A stretch of DNA of 42,451 nt, taken from a virus. Within the stretch, counting starts at the first letter, position 1, and each line of letters opens with the position of its first letter. Under the pieces are notes generated by a model that worked only from the letters and a program-made list of their open reading frames with translations, did not search any database and had not been told where the DNA came from. The translations under genes and the position numbers were made by a program. The stretch lies in IMG/VR virus record IMGVR_UViG_3300046512_000212, positions 1 through 42,451 of that record. One strand, 5' to 3'. Shown here one piece after another: positions 769 to 6,990 of this stretch.

Positions 769-1340
769 AGAACCCGACATTTGTTGTAGGAACCGAGGCG
801 CATCCTGTGGTTTATCCACTCCAGAGGACATCACAGGATCCGCTGACGGCCCCGGCCGGCCAGCGCCTAGTAGGCGAAACCCGTATCGGGGTTGCAGGTG
901 GTACTACCTTGATCGATCAGCCTGGGTGGGTTGGGAGGTGCAAGGGTCATCACTACCAGTGGGGACGGCGCAGAACGTCCCGCGACTGGTAAACCTCTCC
1001 CCATTGCCTTAGGGCTAAGTCTTCCACCACGAGTACGTGAGATAGGAACGGTTTTCGGCTGTTGTGGGTCCTGCCGGCACCGTAGATAACCCTCTGAGTT
1101 GGCCCTAGCTCACGAAATTAGAGGCTTGTCTTCCGGGACCAGTAAAACCGGCCGGGTGGAGCGCCTTGCTCCACCCACACCCCATTCCCGCAGCGGCGGA
1201 CGGCGTGACCTTCCAGGGATGAGTTCCCGACAGCTGCCTTTCCGCGGCTCTAGGGGGCGAGCTAAGCCCAAACACTCACGACCTCGGTTGGCGGAGCCGG
1301 ACAAAACCGCCCAGACCATCTTTTTTGGGCCTTAGCCCGC
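769..1340 (+). ncRNA. candidate large structured non-coding RNA
   Basis: No convincing gene lies between 769 and 1443, but the sequence is full of nested complementary segments. Examples: 802-809 with 832-839 (8 bp, flanked by GCG/CGC); 864-868 with 872-876; 880-883 with 887-890; 955-960 with 985-990 enclosing 962-967 with 976-981; 933-939 with 993-1001 around that helix; 1028-1031 with 1036-1039; 1048-1052 with 1079-1083 enclosing 1056-1059 with 1073-1076; 1154-1162 with 1168-1176 (9 bp, 5-base loop); 1196-1200 with 1241-1245; 1216-1219 with 1225-1228; 1290-1294 with 1307-1311; 1262-1270 with 1326-1335. A T-run (1321-1326) suggests a plus-strand transcript. I see no RNase P, tmRNA, group II domain V or known riboswitch core. 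Large phage-associated RNAs such as GOLLD or ROOL are comparable in size, but I cannot assign a family. Confidence 0.6.
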
Positions 1341-1418: not shown

Positions 1419-1443
1419 CGATAACAATAATGGAGAGAACGAG

Positions 1444-3906
1444 GTGCAAGTCGCCCACGTTCAAGACCACATCACCCATGCGGTGATGGGGGCCAATAGT
1501 GCTGTGTCTTTCGGCATCTCTGAAAGCGCCGAGTTCTTCAACATCCTGAGCAACTCCCTATACTCCGACAAGCCTTTGGCGGTCGCTCGTGAGATCCTCT
1601 GCAACGCCTGGGACGCTCACCTGATCTCCGGCCGAACCGACACCCCCATCGAGATCACCCTCAACGGCAAGGAACTGGTGATCCGCGACCGAGGCGCCGG
1701 CATCCACAAGGCGCTGATGCACAGCGTCTACTGCGTCTACGGCGCCTCGACCAAGGTCGAAAGCGACGTCGAAACCGGCGGCTTCGGCTTGGGCTGCAAG
1801 GTGCCCTTCGCCTACGTCGAGCACTTCGAGGTGACCAACCACAACGAAGGCATGAAGACCATCTACCGGATCTCTAAGACCTCCGGCGAGACGGGCGGAA
1901 AGCCTGGCCTGATGGAGATCCTGTCGGTTCCTACCGACGAGACCGGCATCGAAGTCCGCATCGAGCTGAAGAGCCCACAAGACACCAGCAAGTTCAGCGA
2001 AGCCATTTGCCGTGTCGTGGCCGGCGGCGAGATGAACGCCCTGATGAACGGCAACAAGCTCGCCACCCTCCCCTTCTCGGAAGCCAAGGAAGGCTACCTG
2101 ATCACCAACCAGACGGTTGGGACCAACACGGGCCACAAGATCTTCGTCCGCTACGGCGCCGTGATCTACCCGATCGAGAGCCACGAGGACTACCGGCCGG
2201 CCTACAACACGGCCACCCAACTCCTCACCTCCCTGGCCAACGCCGGCTATGGCTGGAAACTGGTTCTACAGGCCAAGGCCAAGACGGTCTCGATCACTCC
2301 CAGCCGGGAGTCGCTCTCGATGACCGATCGAACCATCGAGACCCTGGGCAAGCTCCTGAAGGACTTCAACGACATCCGGGGCCGGCGCCAGGTCGACGAG
2401 ACGCGAAAGATCAACGTCGAACGTGTTCAGCAAACCTTCCTGGATATGAAGCCAGGCAAGGTTCTCGACACCACCAACCGCATCATCGGCCTGACTGAGT
2501 ACAGCCTGGTGTCGCACACGGTGATGACCGACTTTTCGGTGGTCGCCCTTTCCCTGGCGGCCAAGTCCTACCCCTCGTTTCCGGGCTTCCGGCAGCAGGA
2601 CATCGAGCTGCGTCTCCGCTCGCTGATCGCCTCCAACTACGGCAACCGCGGCAAGATCCAGACCTTCCTCTCCGAGTATCAAACGGAGAAGAAGCTCAAC
2701 AAGTACAAGTCCACCTGGTTCATGCGTCGCTTGGTCAGCCCTTTGCTGACCGACATGAAGGATAATCCCGACGTCAGTGCCGACAGACTGCTGGTCTACG
2801 GGCACAACTACGGTGATCGTCAGGAGCGGATCTCATACTCCGCGAACCAGTTCCACCCTGCAAAGAGCTTCAGCAAAGGGACGCTTGAGCAATACCTGCC
2901 GTTCCTTCGCAACCTGGTCATCCTCTCGAACAACCGAGCGGACGTCACGGAGCGAGCTCAGCACTTCCCGCAGATGAAGCACTGGTTCGGCGATCCGTCC
3001 GACAGCCTAGTCTATATCGTCCACCGATCGGACGCAAAGATCGCCGCTGCTCGGGCCTTCTTCGCCAAGCACGGCTTCACCGTCGTCGACCTCACCAGGC
3101 GTTACAAGGGTGAGCCGGCGCCGATCGTTGTCGACAGGGAGCCTCGGGAATTCAAGGCCCGAAAGAGCGGCCTGCCTCTGCTCTCCAGCATCCTGCCGGA
3201 GGGCAAGAAGCTGATCTCCACCGACAAAGCCAAGGCGGAAGACGTCCCTCGGATCGAAAAGCCGGAGTTCGTCGTCAAGATCGGCTCCAGGCTCGACACC
3301 CACGTCTTCGAGGATCTGAACAGGGAGACCTGCGAGGACATCGTGAGGCTGTTCGGTTCGAGAGGCGGCATCGCCGTCAATCAGGCCCAGGTCGACAAGT
3401 TCGTCTCTGCCGGCGCCAAACCCATGCTGGGCTGGGTGTTCGACAGAGTGATCGAGTGGCTCAAGGCCAGCAAGACGATCGAGAGCTACCTGTCTGTCGA
3501 CTTCGACCGACTGGAGAACCTGGGTGGCTATCCCCTCAGCTACGACGACAAGGAGATCGTCAAACTGATCCAAAGTGATGACGTGTTGAAGACCTACTAT
3601 GGCCTCGACACGCCTACATCGACCGAAGACGGGGCTTATCTCCGCCTGTTCAACAATCTCGCAAGCATGAGCACCTTCAGGTGGTCAAAGAAAGACGAGA
3701 TCGAAGAAGTAAGGAAGCTGCTGAAGAGCTTCCCTGTGGGCGACAGCGTAAAGGAACTGGCTACTTCAGTCAGGTCCAGTCCGTTCACCAGTTCCATCGA
3801 CGCTGCGTCACTTGGGAAGATATTCAAGGACTCCAGCATCTCCCCCAACATCAACATGCGTAAAGCCAAGGCCAGGGATCTCCTGATCTTCGCTATCGCG
3901 GGATAA
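1444..3906 (+). CDS. rIIA: rIIA-like GHKL ATPase
   Basis: 820 residues, GTG start with GGAGAG at 1432-1437. The N-terminal 200 residues carry a GHKL (Bergerat) ATP-binding fold: the N-box with E50, N54 and D57 (REILCNAWDAH), the DxGxG motif at D82-G86, and the glycine lid GGFGLG at 112-117. This pattern, together with an rIIB partner four bases downstream, matches phage rIIA-like proteins; T4 rIIA/rIIB act at the membrane and affect superinfection and phage-exclusion phenotypes. N4-like phages carry an rIIA/rIIB pair in the middle region. The C-terminal 500 residues show no motif I recognise. A GTG start, the AT-rich inverted repeat and the CATCCTGAA motif upstream suggest it heads a transcription unit. 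Confidence 0.85.
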   Translation: MQVAHVQDHITHAVMGANSAVSFGISESAEFFNILSNSLYSDKPLAVAREILCNAWDAHLISGRTDTPIEITLNGKELVIRDRGAGIHKALMHSVYCVYGASTKVESDVETGGFGLGCKVPFAYVEHFEVTNHNEGMKTIYRISKTSGETGGKPGLMEILSVPTDETGIEVRIELKSPQDTSKFSEAICRVVAGGEMNALMNGNKLATLPFSEAKEGYLITNQTVGTNTGHKIFVRYGAVIYPIESHEDYRPAYNTATQLLTSLANAGYGWKLVLQAKAKTVSITPSRESLSMTDRTIETLGKLLKDFNDIRGRRQVDETRKINVERVQQTFLDMKPGKVLDTTNRIIGLTEYSLVSHTVMTDFSVVALSLAAKSYPSFPGFRQQDIELRLRSLIASNYGNRGKIQTFLSEYQTEKKLNKYKSTWFMRRLVSPLLTDMKDNPDVSADRLLVYGHNYGDRQERISYSANQFHPAKSFSKGTLEQYLPFLRNLVILSNNRADVTERAQHFPQMKHWFGDPSDSLVYIVHRSDAKIAAARAFFAKHGFTVVDLTRRYKGEPAPIVVDREPREFKARKSGLPLLSSILPEGKKLISTDKAKAEDVPRIEKPEFVVKIGSRLDTHVFEDLNRETCEDIVRLFGSRGGIAVNQAQVDKFVSAGAKPMLGWVFDRVIEWLKASKTIESYLSVDFDRLENLGGYPLSYDDKEIVKLIQSDDVLKTYYGLDTPTSTEDGAYLRLFNNLASMSTFRWSKKDEIEEVRKLLKSFPVGDSVKELATSVRSSPFTSSIDAASLGKIFKDSSISPNINMRKAKARDLLIFAIAG

Positions 3907-3910
3907 CATC

Positions 3911-6067
3911 ATGACGGGTAAAATCGAGATCCTCGGCGCTGTGGTCGATACGCAGCAGCTGATCCTCTATAAGGCCGACGGAACCAAGATCTACATCCCC
4001 CAAGGGGATCCTCGGATCCGCGGCATCATCGATCAGATCATGCCGATCCTGAACGCCGGCGGCGTGGCCGAAATCAGCCTGGAACCGGCGAACGAGTACG
4101 CGGCCTTCGAAAAGAAGACCAACGGCCTGGTGCGTCTGTTCCGGGTGGCCAAGAAGGCCATCGCTCACCTGGTTGGCTCCGACGCCGACCGGGAAGCTGT
4201 CGAACCCATGGCCATCGGCCAGGTCACCACGGCGCCCAAGAACAACGGGGTCAAGGCCGACACGATCGACGAGATCATGGCCAACGCCGTTCCCGTCTCC
4301 TCGGAAGACTTCAAGGAGTCGGAGACCAAGGAAGATCACACCATGGTCGCCGTGGTCGGCACCGGCAAGGAAGCCAAGCTGGTCCCGGGTGTAGAAGCCC
4401 TCAAGGGCCAGATGAGCCACGCCAACAAGCTGGGCTCGACCAAAGGCGTCGAAGCCCTGATCACCCGGCTGGGCAATGTCGCCCAGAATCGGGGCCACTC
4501 CGTCCAGGATGTGCTCCGGTTCCTGGAGAAGGGTGACCTTCCGGTCGCCGACGACGGCTCGATCATCGCGTACAAGATCCTGACCAGGAGCTCCTACAAC
4601 AAGGATCACAAGGCGGCCGAAGGCGTCTACTTCGACTGCCACACCCAGAAGATCCCCCAGAAGGTGGGCTCTTACGTCTGCGTAGCGGAAGAGCTGGTCG
4701 ACCGGAACCGCCGTAACGAATGCTCCAACGGCCTGCACATCGCTCGCCGGGGCTATCTGGGCAGCTTCTCCGGCGACGTCTGCGTTCTGACCAAGATCGC
4801 GCCGGAAGATGTGGTCACCGTTCCGCACAACGACCCCAACAAGGTCCGCGTCTGCGGCTACCACATCATCGGGCTGATCCCCGACGACGAGTTCCAAAAG
4901 CTGAAGCGGAACTTGCCGATGACCGACAGTTCCGAATGCCGGCGCCTCTTGGACTCGGCCATCACCGGCAAACACGTCGGCCGTCTGGAACAAGTCCAGG
5001 TCACCGAGCAGAAAGGCGGCGGCATCGTCATCACCACGGCGATGCCTGGCATCGGGATGGGCAAGAAGCCCCTGCCGAAGCCTTCGGAACCGGCCCTCGA
5101 AAAGAACATCGCCCCTCAAGCAGTGGCTCTCGACGACAAGACCGTGCCCGGCAACACCGCCGGGCCGAGCGTCTCGGTGGACCCCAAGGCCGTCAGCAAG
5201 CAGGTCCAGGACCAGAAGAGCCAGACCCAACCTTCCCGGGCTCAACTGGCTGCCGAACTGGTGGGCCGTATGGCGAATGGCGACCTGCCCAACAGCGAAC
5301 GCAAGAACGCTGCTGAAGCCCTGGTCGCCTTGAAGAAGAAGTCCAAGGTCAGCTACGGCGCCTTAGGTCTGACGCCGGCCCAGGTCACCACCATGGAGCA
5401 AACCCTGAAGGGCAACATCGCCCAGAAGGTCGAGCAGGTGGCCGTTCCGAAGCTGGTTCTCAAGCCGGCGCCGGAACCGGCTCCCTTCCCGAAGTCGACT
5501 GCCGCTCCTCTCAGCAGGGGCGAACAAGCGGCCTACCTGGTGAAGACCATGAACAGCAGCATCGCTGTCCATGCTCGGATCAACGCCGCCAAGCAGCTGG
5601 TGGAGCTGAAGAAGAAGTCGAAGGTCGGGTGGGCCGGTCTGAACGTCAGCACCAAGGACGCCAACACGGCCCTGGATCTGGCCTCTGACACCACCCCGCC
5701 GGCACCCCCTGAGCCTACGGTCCAGGCCGTGGCCAAGGCCATCCTGCAAGCACCCAAGAAGGTCTCCAAGCCGTCTTCGAAGAAGAAGGTGAAGCGGACC
5801 ACCCCGAAGCAGCCTGTGACCAAGGTTGTCGTCGTCAGCGCCACCTCTCTCCTGGCGCCGTCGGCTCAGCCCAAGGATGGTCCTCGTCAAGTGGAGGCCA
5901 AGCGCCTCTACGCGACCATGACCAACGCCGCCAACAAGGTGAGCGTCCGGAAGTCGTCGGCCAGCGAACTGCTGCGCCACAAGAAGTCGTCGAAGGTCAG
6001 CTGGACTGCCTTGGGTCTTTCCCAAGATATGTCTAAGCAGATCGAGGACCTTCTCACCTCGAAATAA
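3911..6067 (+). CDS. rIIB: rIIB-like protein with three C-terminal repeats
   Basis: 718 residues. Residues about 170-330 hold the rIIB core: a helix with LRFLEKGDLPVADDGSIIAYKIL, then a Cys/His-containing segment ending CSNGLHIARRGYLGSF. T4-type rIIB is far shorter (about 310 residues); the extension here is unusual. It consists of a Pro/Ala/Lys-rich tail with three copies of a module of about 50 residues (442-491, 535-584, 663-709). Each is helical and the first two end KKKSKV followed by an aromatic and a Leu-Gly/Leu-Asn turn; the third has KKSSKVSWTALGL. The linkers are low-complexity and basic (for example SKPSSKKKVKR). Starts four bases after rIIA, so the two are co-transcribed. The ribosome binding site is weak (GGGATAA), suggesting translational coupling. 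Confidence 0.85.
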   Translation: MTGKIEILGAVVDTQQLILYKADGTKIYIPQGDPRIRGIIDQIMPILNAGGVAEISLEPANEYAAFEKKTNGLVRLFRVAKKAIAHLVGSDADREAVEPMAIGQVTTAPKNNGVKADTIDEIMANAVPVSSEDFKESETKEDHTMVAVVGTGKEAKLVPGVEALKGQMSHANKLGSTKGVEALITRLGNVAQNRGHSVQDVLRFLEKGDLPVADDGSIIAYKILTRSSYNKDHKAAEGVYFDCHTQKIPQKVGSYVCVAEELVDRNRRNECSNGLHIARRGYLGSFSGDVCVLTKIAPEDVVTVPHNDPNKVRVCGYHIIGLIPDDEFQKLKRNLPMTDSSECRRLLDSAITGKHVGRLEQVQVTEQKGGGIVITTAMPGIGMGKKPLPKPSEPALEKNIAPQAVALDDKTVPGNTAGPSVSVDPKAVSKQVQDQKSQTQPSRAQLAAELVGRMANGDLPNSERKNAAEALVALKKKSKVSYGALGLTPAQVTTMEQTLKGNIAQKVEQVAVPKLVLKPAPEPAPFPKSTAAPLSRGEQAAYLVKTMNSSIAVHARINAAKQLVELKKKSKVGWAGLNVSTKDANTALDLASDTTPPAPPEPTVQAVAKAILQAPKKVSKPSSKKKVKRTTPKQPVTKVVVVSATSLLAPSAQPKDGPRQVEAKRLYATMTNAANKVSVRKSSASELLRHKKSSKVSWTALGLSQDMSKQIEDLLTSK

Positions 6068-6080
6068 GCACTAGGCAAAT

Positions 6081-6110
6081 CACCCCAAACTAAACTATTA
6101 GTTTGGGGTG
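6081..6110. terminator. perfect 13-bp hairpin after rIIB
   Basis: CACCCCAAACTAA (6081-6093), a 4-base loop (ACTA), then the exact complement (6098-6110). It sits 13 bases after the rIIB stop and 20 before the next start. There is no T-tract, so it may be a terminator of the hairpin-only kind seen elsewhere in this phage, or an operator for the helix-turn-helix gene that follows. Confidence 0.6.
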
Positions 6111-6130
6111 AACCTAATCCTGGTGTGACT

Positions 6131-6436
6131 ATGTCCAACGCAAACCGTCCTAACCGCAAAGCCTCCGACGCCGACATCGTTCGGCTTAATAGTCTGGGGC
6201 GCTCGCTGGGTACTGTCGCAAAGAAACTGGGGGTCCATCCGACCACCATCACGCTTCGCCTTCAGAACCTGGGCATCGAGCCGGCGGACACCCGAAGGAC
6301 CTTCATGGAAGGCATCCTCGACAGCCTTTCAGAGGCCCAAGAGGAGTGGCTGTCCAAGCAGTTGGGGCCGCATCTGTCCATCAAGGACTACGTGCAGAAC
6401 CTGCTGGTGAAGGACTACATCGTCCACAACTCGTAG
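6131..6436 (+). CDS. small helix-turn-helix protein
   Basis: 101 residues from ATG 6131 (GTG 6125 is possible, two codons earlier; neither has a strong ribosome binding site). Residues about 15-50 form a clear helix-turn-helix: LNSLGRSLGTVAKKLGVH then a recognition helix PTTITLRLQNLGI, as in resolvase-type or MarR-like small regulators. The C-terminal half is helical and acidic then basic, perhaps for dimerisation. The gene lies directly after a perfect 13-bp palindrome that could be its operator. A variant of the leader word (AATCCTGGT, 6114-6122) also precedes it. A transcription regulator is likely; the target is unknown. Confidence 0.65.
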   Translation: MSNANRPNRKASDADIVRLNSLGRSLGTVAKKLGVHPTTITLRLQNLGIEPADTRRTFMEGILDSLSEAQEEWLSKQLGPHLSIKDYVQNLLVKDYIVHNS

Positions 6437-6913: not shown

Positions 6914-6990
6914 GCTCCCATAGCTCAACAGGATAGAGCACCGGCCTTCTAAGTCGGTTGTTCCAGGTTCGAGTCCTGGTGGGGGTGCCA
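6914..6990 (+). tRNA. tRNA-Arg (anticodon UCU)
   Basis: A complete 77-base cloverleaf. The acceptor stem GCTCCCA pairs with TGGGGGT (two G-T wobbles); discriminator G; CCA is encoded (6988-6990). D-arm GCTC/GAGC; anticodon stem CCGGC/GTCGG with loop CTTCTAA giving anticodon TCT; T-arm CCAGG-TTCGAGT-CCTGG. It reads AGA (and possibly AGG) arginine codons, which are often rare in GC-rich hosts; AGG does occur in several genes in this window. It lies 10 bases after the MazG-like gene. No other tRNA was found. Confidence 0.95.

Follow-up and report, generated by a model that had tools for sequence, protein, structure and literature searches.

What occupies the gap upstream of rIIA in this phage genome? 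The window analyzed here, a 42,451-base IMG/VR virus record, carries N4-like (Schitoviridae) genes assigned by PHROG, including those for the virion RNA polymerase, portal, primase, rIIA and rIIB, and also encodes a family A DNA polymerase. An open reading frame (ORF) ends at 768 and rIIA, likewise assigned by PHROG, begins at 1444. The original prediction took the sequence between them for a large structured RNA, and both the gap and the non-genic nature of the short ORFs within it were borne out. Codon-position GC is flat over 769-1345 (0.58/0.60/0.64 and 0.62/0.63/0.54), while the neighboring genes have a clear codon pattern. Relative to a homologous contig, L111, substitutions in the gap are nearly independent of phase (0.17/0.20/0.25), in contrast to those in the helicase gene (0.17/0.15/0.43), and 1-base indels break any frame. 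On these three grounds, the gap is non-coding. No sigma-70 promoter was found. The idea that the virion polymerase makes the RNA likewise gained no support, in a window that stops short of the early region.

Folding against shuffled sequence had been put forward as a check. The gap RNA has a minimum free energy (MFE) z of -3.0, lower than 100 of 100 shuffles (reverse strand, z = -2.6), but low values are ordinary across this genome: 53 control windows of 340 bases, covering the first 18 kb, have a mean z of -2.1 (sd 1.3). Single-sequence folding energy is therefore uninformative here and was dropped as evidence. Gaps in GC-rich phage genomes call for comparative evidence instead.

Homologues were found in two IMG/VR phage contigs, L111 and L012, giving three sequences in all. 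Genes near the RNA in L111 share 75-78% DNA identity with the window, and the rIIA of L012 is 48% identical. As a lone query the rIIA protein retrieved no loci; an alignment of rIIA with named N4-like relatives retrieved 80. The expectation that homologous gaps would lie upstream of rIIA in N4-like phages held for L012, but for no other among the named phages and about 80 IMG/VR loci, nearly all of which have no such RNA, and L111 has the RNA without rIIA. Other gaps of 200-400 bases upstream of rIIA contain tRNA-like or terminator-like hairpins. L111 was found by the pattern of a conserved hairpin loop, the remaining pattern matches being consistent with chance.

The whole structured RNA lies on the + strand at 776-1390 (approximate ends), conservation with L111 starting from about 776, and measures about 600 bases in the window, about 340 in L111 and about 700 in L012. 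Identity with L111 is 76% over 736-1002 and 82% over 1346-1419. For the core common to these two phages (776-1002 plus 1346-1419, excluding an insert described below), the alignment-fold z is -6.5 for the + strand, compared with -1.3 for the - strand. Its 83 consensus pairs include none broken, five with two-sided changes and 13 with one-sided changes; the latter keep pairing only via G-U, which is an A-C mismatch on the other strand. Coding controls aligned with L111 (15 windows) have a mean z of -1.1 (sd 1.4), and those aligned with L012 a mean of -0.6 (sd 1.1). With covariation in two relatives, strand-specific conserved structure and no coding signal, as in large structured non-coding RNAs of phages, the gap is best explained by these alignments as a large structured RNA on the + strand, in agreement with the original prediction. 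Covariation was counted on two or three rows, and the per-pair controls are of moderate strength: in 500 column shuffles, which do not preserve dinucleotides, the observed value was reached 2 to 29 times. Given so few sequences, individual helices are provisional except for hairpin B, the long arm, the hairpins of module C and one helix of module D (GGCGUGA/UCACGACC).

The 5' domain of the RNA (776-1002) contains the long arm (797-844, + strand; AUCCUGUGGU.../AUCACAGGAU), of which 13 + 2 pairs are kept in the window and L111, with one two-sided change and several G-U changes between them. A hairpin AACCC/GGGUU followed by RGGUGGU (878-893, +) is present in all three phages. The same strand carries two near-palindromes next to each other, AGGTGGTACTACCT and TTGATCGATCAG (896-920), the same in L111 except for the last-but-one base and not seen in L012; they are a possible dimerization or protein site. 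The helix GGUGGU/AUCACU (897-902/949-954, spanning 897-954 on the + strand) is found in all three phages, and the arm that it surrounds (907-945) is kept in L111 and partly broken in the L012 alignment. Hairpin B (954-991, +) has an invariant loop, GCGCAGAA (968-975). Across the three phages its 14 pairs show none broken and four compensated, and the pattern is lost once the partner strand is shifted out of register. The 3' terminal hairpin, TATACCCACAAGATAG/CTATATCGTGGGTATA (1354-1387, +), is conserved in L111 with one two-sided change. Three hairpins predicted at the outset (955-960/985-990, 962-967/976-981 and about 1154-1162/1168-1176) are present and conserved with compensatory changes; the pair proposed to enclose the first two (933-939/993-1001) falls outside the conserved structure, most of its bases pairing elsewhere. 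Relative to the remainder of the window, the pentamer AAACC is about 6-fold enriched in the RNA of the three phages, and each copy in the window RNA (877, 991, 1145 and 1304) stands directly 3' of a hairpin stem, which suggests a recurring junction or tertiary motif.

Between hairpin B and the 3' hairpin, the window contains an insert absent from L111 (1012-1338, +), closed by the helix GGGCTAAG/CTTAGCCC (1012-1019/1331-1338) and composed of two modules, each with a closing helix of its own. Module C (1012-1182, +; L012 3186-3360) has 36 consensus pairs, eight with two-sided changes and none broken, and an alignment-fold z of -5.4, with a reverse-strand value that is also low (-3.6). Module D (1185-1330, +; L012 3044-3192) is 73% identical over 128 columns and has 24 pairs, four with two-sided changes and none broken, at an alignment-fold z of only -1.3; it contains the invariant block CGGTTGGCGGAGCCGGACAAAACCGC and the helices GCGG/CCGC and GGCGUGA/UCACGACC. 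The order is C-D in the window and D-C in L012, where B is followed by an arm particular to that phage, D and C; L111 has neither module. The possibility that C and D are duplicates of one another was ruled out, as models R2 and R3 do not match the other's module.

A T-run at 1321-1326 had been taken for the end of the RNA. This assignment was discarded: the run lies within the insert, inside its closing helix, and homology with L111 continues through 1346-1419. Downstream of the 3' hairpin is a small hairpin with the octamer ATCCTGAA (1394-1418, +). The octamer is a recurring gene-leader element of this phage, over-represented in the window (nine occurrences versus 1.2 expected), at sites that include 233, 1411, 7431, 12350 and 16422 on the + strand and 28792 and 38427 on the - strand. 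In six of nine cases in the window and 12 of 17 in the record of L111, the octamer precedes a start codon by 8-29 bases, often itself following a small hairpin, and it was not seen in this role in L115. From its placement, ATCCTGAA may be a phage-wide leader or promoter-like element. The element at 1394-1418 is probably the leader of rIIA, marking the boundary with that gene rather than belonging to the RNA, and the RNA would therefore probably end near 1390.

Further searches showed the RNA to be a new, narrowly distributed family in Schitoviridae. At the gathering threshold, Rfam matched only a tRNA in the window, outside the gap, and a scan of 4227 families at E 10 left the gap without a match save a chance snoRNA. 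The suggestion of a new family is upheld by this lack of Rfam matches, GOLLD and ROOL included. Over 50 whole records, the covariance model of B matched only the L012 and L111 records and that of D only L012; beyond L012 and L111, 48 IMG/VR phage records held no homologue by covariance models. A weak match of model R1 upstream of rIIA in L017 (E 0.26) was judged to be chance on inspection. Using the helicase as the query added 31 loci, with no RNA except in the record of L111 itself. No match was found by blastn with the window and L012 gaps against 50,697 phage records, and two matches in plasmid records were both chance. The B-loop pattern gave at least 117 matches in genome contigs, with no homologue among the matches listed, and relaxed B and D patterns returned only chance matches and already known contigs among viral contigs. 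No literature on such an RNA in N4-like phages was found in a search of incomplete coverage. The family is new but its kind, the large structured phage RNA, is already known; its most unusual trait is the swapped module order.

Among RNAs of this kind, GOLLD is phage-borne, non-coding, hundreds of bases long and elaborate, with one conserved end, another region that varies and a variable linker; ROOL is also phage-borne, with about 570 positions, a variable linker and no known partner protein (PMC12286853). The likeness of the window RNA to both is one of lay-out only: conserved flanks, a variable linker, phage origin and size. The GOLLD covariance model (RF02032) has no match in the window even at E 10, direct search included, and ROOL (RF03087) has none in the Rfam scan or in a direct search run without a positive control. 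GOLLD is universally conserved in its 3' region, whereas here the 5' core and a short 3' hairpin are best conserved around a variable middle. ROOL is often near tRNA islands; the window has a single tRNA-Arg (6914-6990), and its RNA, in contrast to GOLLD and ROOL, is not in a tRNA island, the nearest tRNA being 5.5 kb away. GOLLD forms a homo-oligomeric 14-mer cage and ROOL an octameric cage. Symmetric kissing loops occur in OLE and GOLLD, those of OLE with self-complementary tetranucleotides (PMC12286853). OLE RNA is likewise large and ornate, and its kissing loops are a precedent for a GCGC-containing loop such as that of B, but it is bacterial rather than phage-borne and the window RNA has no Rfam match. 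The packaging RNA (pRNA) of phi29 is also a phage structural RNA and works as a multimer; it is much smaller, and neither a resemblance to it nor an Rfam match was found. No catalytic core of a group I/II intron or catalogued ribozyme was recognized by Rfam in the window RNA. The RNA adds a family unrelated to the known large structured phage RNAs.

To our knowledge, large structured RNAs have been described from phages in very few cases, and the role of these RNAs is an open question. We propose, with about even confidence, that 776-~1390 is a free-standing, non-coding, modular + strand RNA that would act in trans, serving as a scaffold or binding platform. The core of 5' arms, hairpin B and 3' hairpin brackets a variable middle, which can lack both modules or accommodate C and D, each folding independently, in one order or the other. 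The invariant B loop is the likeliest contact point, for a second RNA copy or for a phage or host factor; no stretch of at least five bases complementary to it occurs in the RNA, and it may therefore bind a partner or second copy; the GCGC within it is self-complementary. By analogy with the RNAs above, the mechanism could be that of an oligomer or scaffold. It is possible, as a tentative extension, that the RNA belongs to an ornate phage class in which modules are inserted, deleted and re-ordered around a constant core and which forms a multimer or ribonucleoprotein particle via the GCGCAGAA loop.

The same RNA could instead be a monomeric decoy that binds, sequesters or mimics a host factor (part of the ribosome, a tRNA, a nuclease or a defense sensor). 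The unpaired GCGCAGAA loop and the CGGTTGGCGGAGCCGGACAAAACCGC block are both invariant, and the narrow distribution and modular gain and loss fit a host-specific arms race; however, no partner was identified and there is no likeness to tRNA or any Rfam family, so that we regard a decoy as doubtful but worth weighing.

A cis-acting leader of the rIIA-rIIB messenger, attenuator or riboswitch-like, is suggested by the position of the RNA, which in both the window and L012 immediately precedes rIIA, with the small hairpin and gene-leader element between RNA and start codon. L111, however, lacks rIIA/rIIB (window 1420-5871 region), which have no match in its 71.8-kb record, while the flanking genes are collinear and every pair of the RNA core is kept. 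The RNA therefore cannot be explained simply as a leader of rIIA. Its modules, several hundred bases long, are also large for a leader, and most N4-like phages regulate rIIA without the RNA; this reading is unlikely. Since the window shares modules C and D and the adjacency to rIIA with L012, its more distant relative, the closer relative L111 has most simply lost both rIIA/rIIB and the insert. To judge from three genomes, the core appears functional without either. These genomes form a natural experiment, with two module orders plus one phage without modules and rIIA/B, which allows the functions of core and modules to be tested separately.

A further reading, very unlikely in our view, treats the C/D insert as an independent mobile or catalytic (intron-like) RNA that invaded a smaller structured RNA. 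Its presence, absence and reordering between relatives and its closing helices, overall and per module, would fit such an origin, but Rfam introns and ribozymes do not match even at E 10, no other copy was found in IMG/VR (D-core pattern) or in phage and plasmid records, and L111 has 38 unrelated bases at the insert position rather than a clean empty site. A function at the DNA level, as a replication origin, packaging or recombination site via single-strand DNA hairpins, would account for the strong inverted repeats and two conserved palindromes, but is highly improbable given the strand-specificity of the structure and the one-sided changes that leave A-C mismatches on the other strand. Chance folding of GC-rich intergenic DNA, with no RNA at all, would suit the unremarkable single-sequence z but is contradicted by the covariation of B, the core z and its coding controls, and blocks conserved between phages whose rIIA proteins are so divergent, which leaves it a negligible probability.

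Other features of the locus were observed in passing. The lowest of the coding controls against L111, and the sole low one, is window 5872-6171 (z -4.9), probably owing to a strong conserved hairpin (CACCCCAAACTA/TAGTTTGGGGTG) just after rIIB that is probably a terminator. The upstream ORF (280-768, 162 aa) matches nothing in Pfam or PHROG, and its 'DGVHR' stretch recalls ParB-like nucleases; in its place L111 has a GP17-like superinfection exclusion gene (PF17420). The DNA polymerase homologue of L111 (933-3696, - strand) is divided between ORFs of 693 and 245 aa that overlap, whereas that of the window is a single ORF of 872 aa, and the split represents a frameshift or sequencing error.
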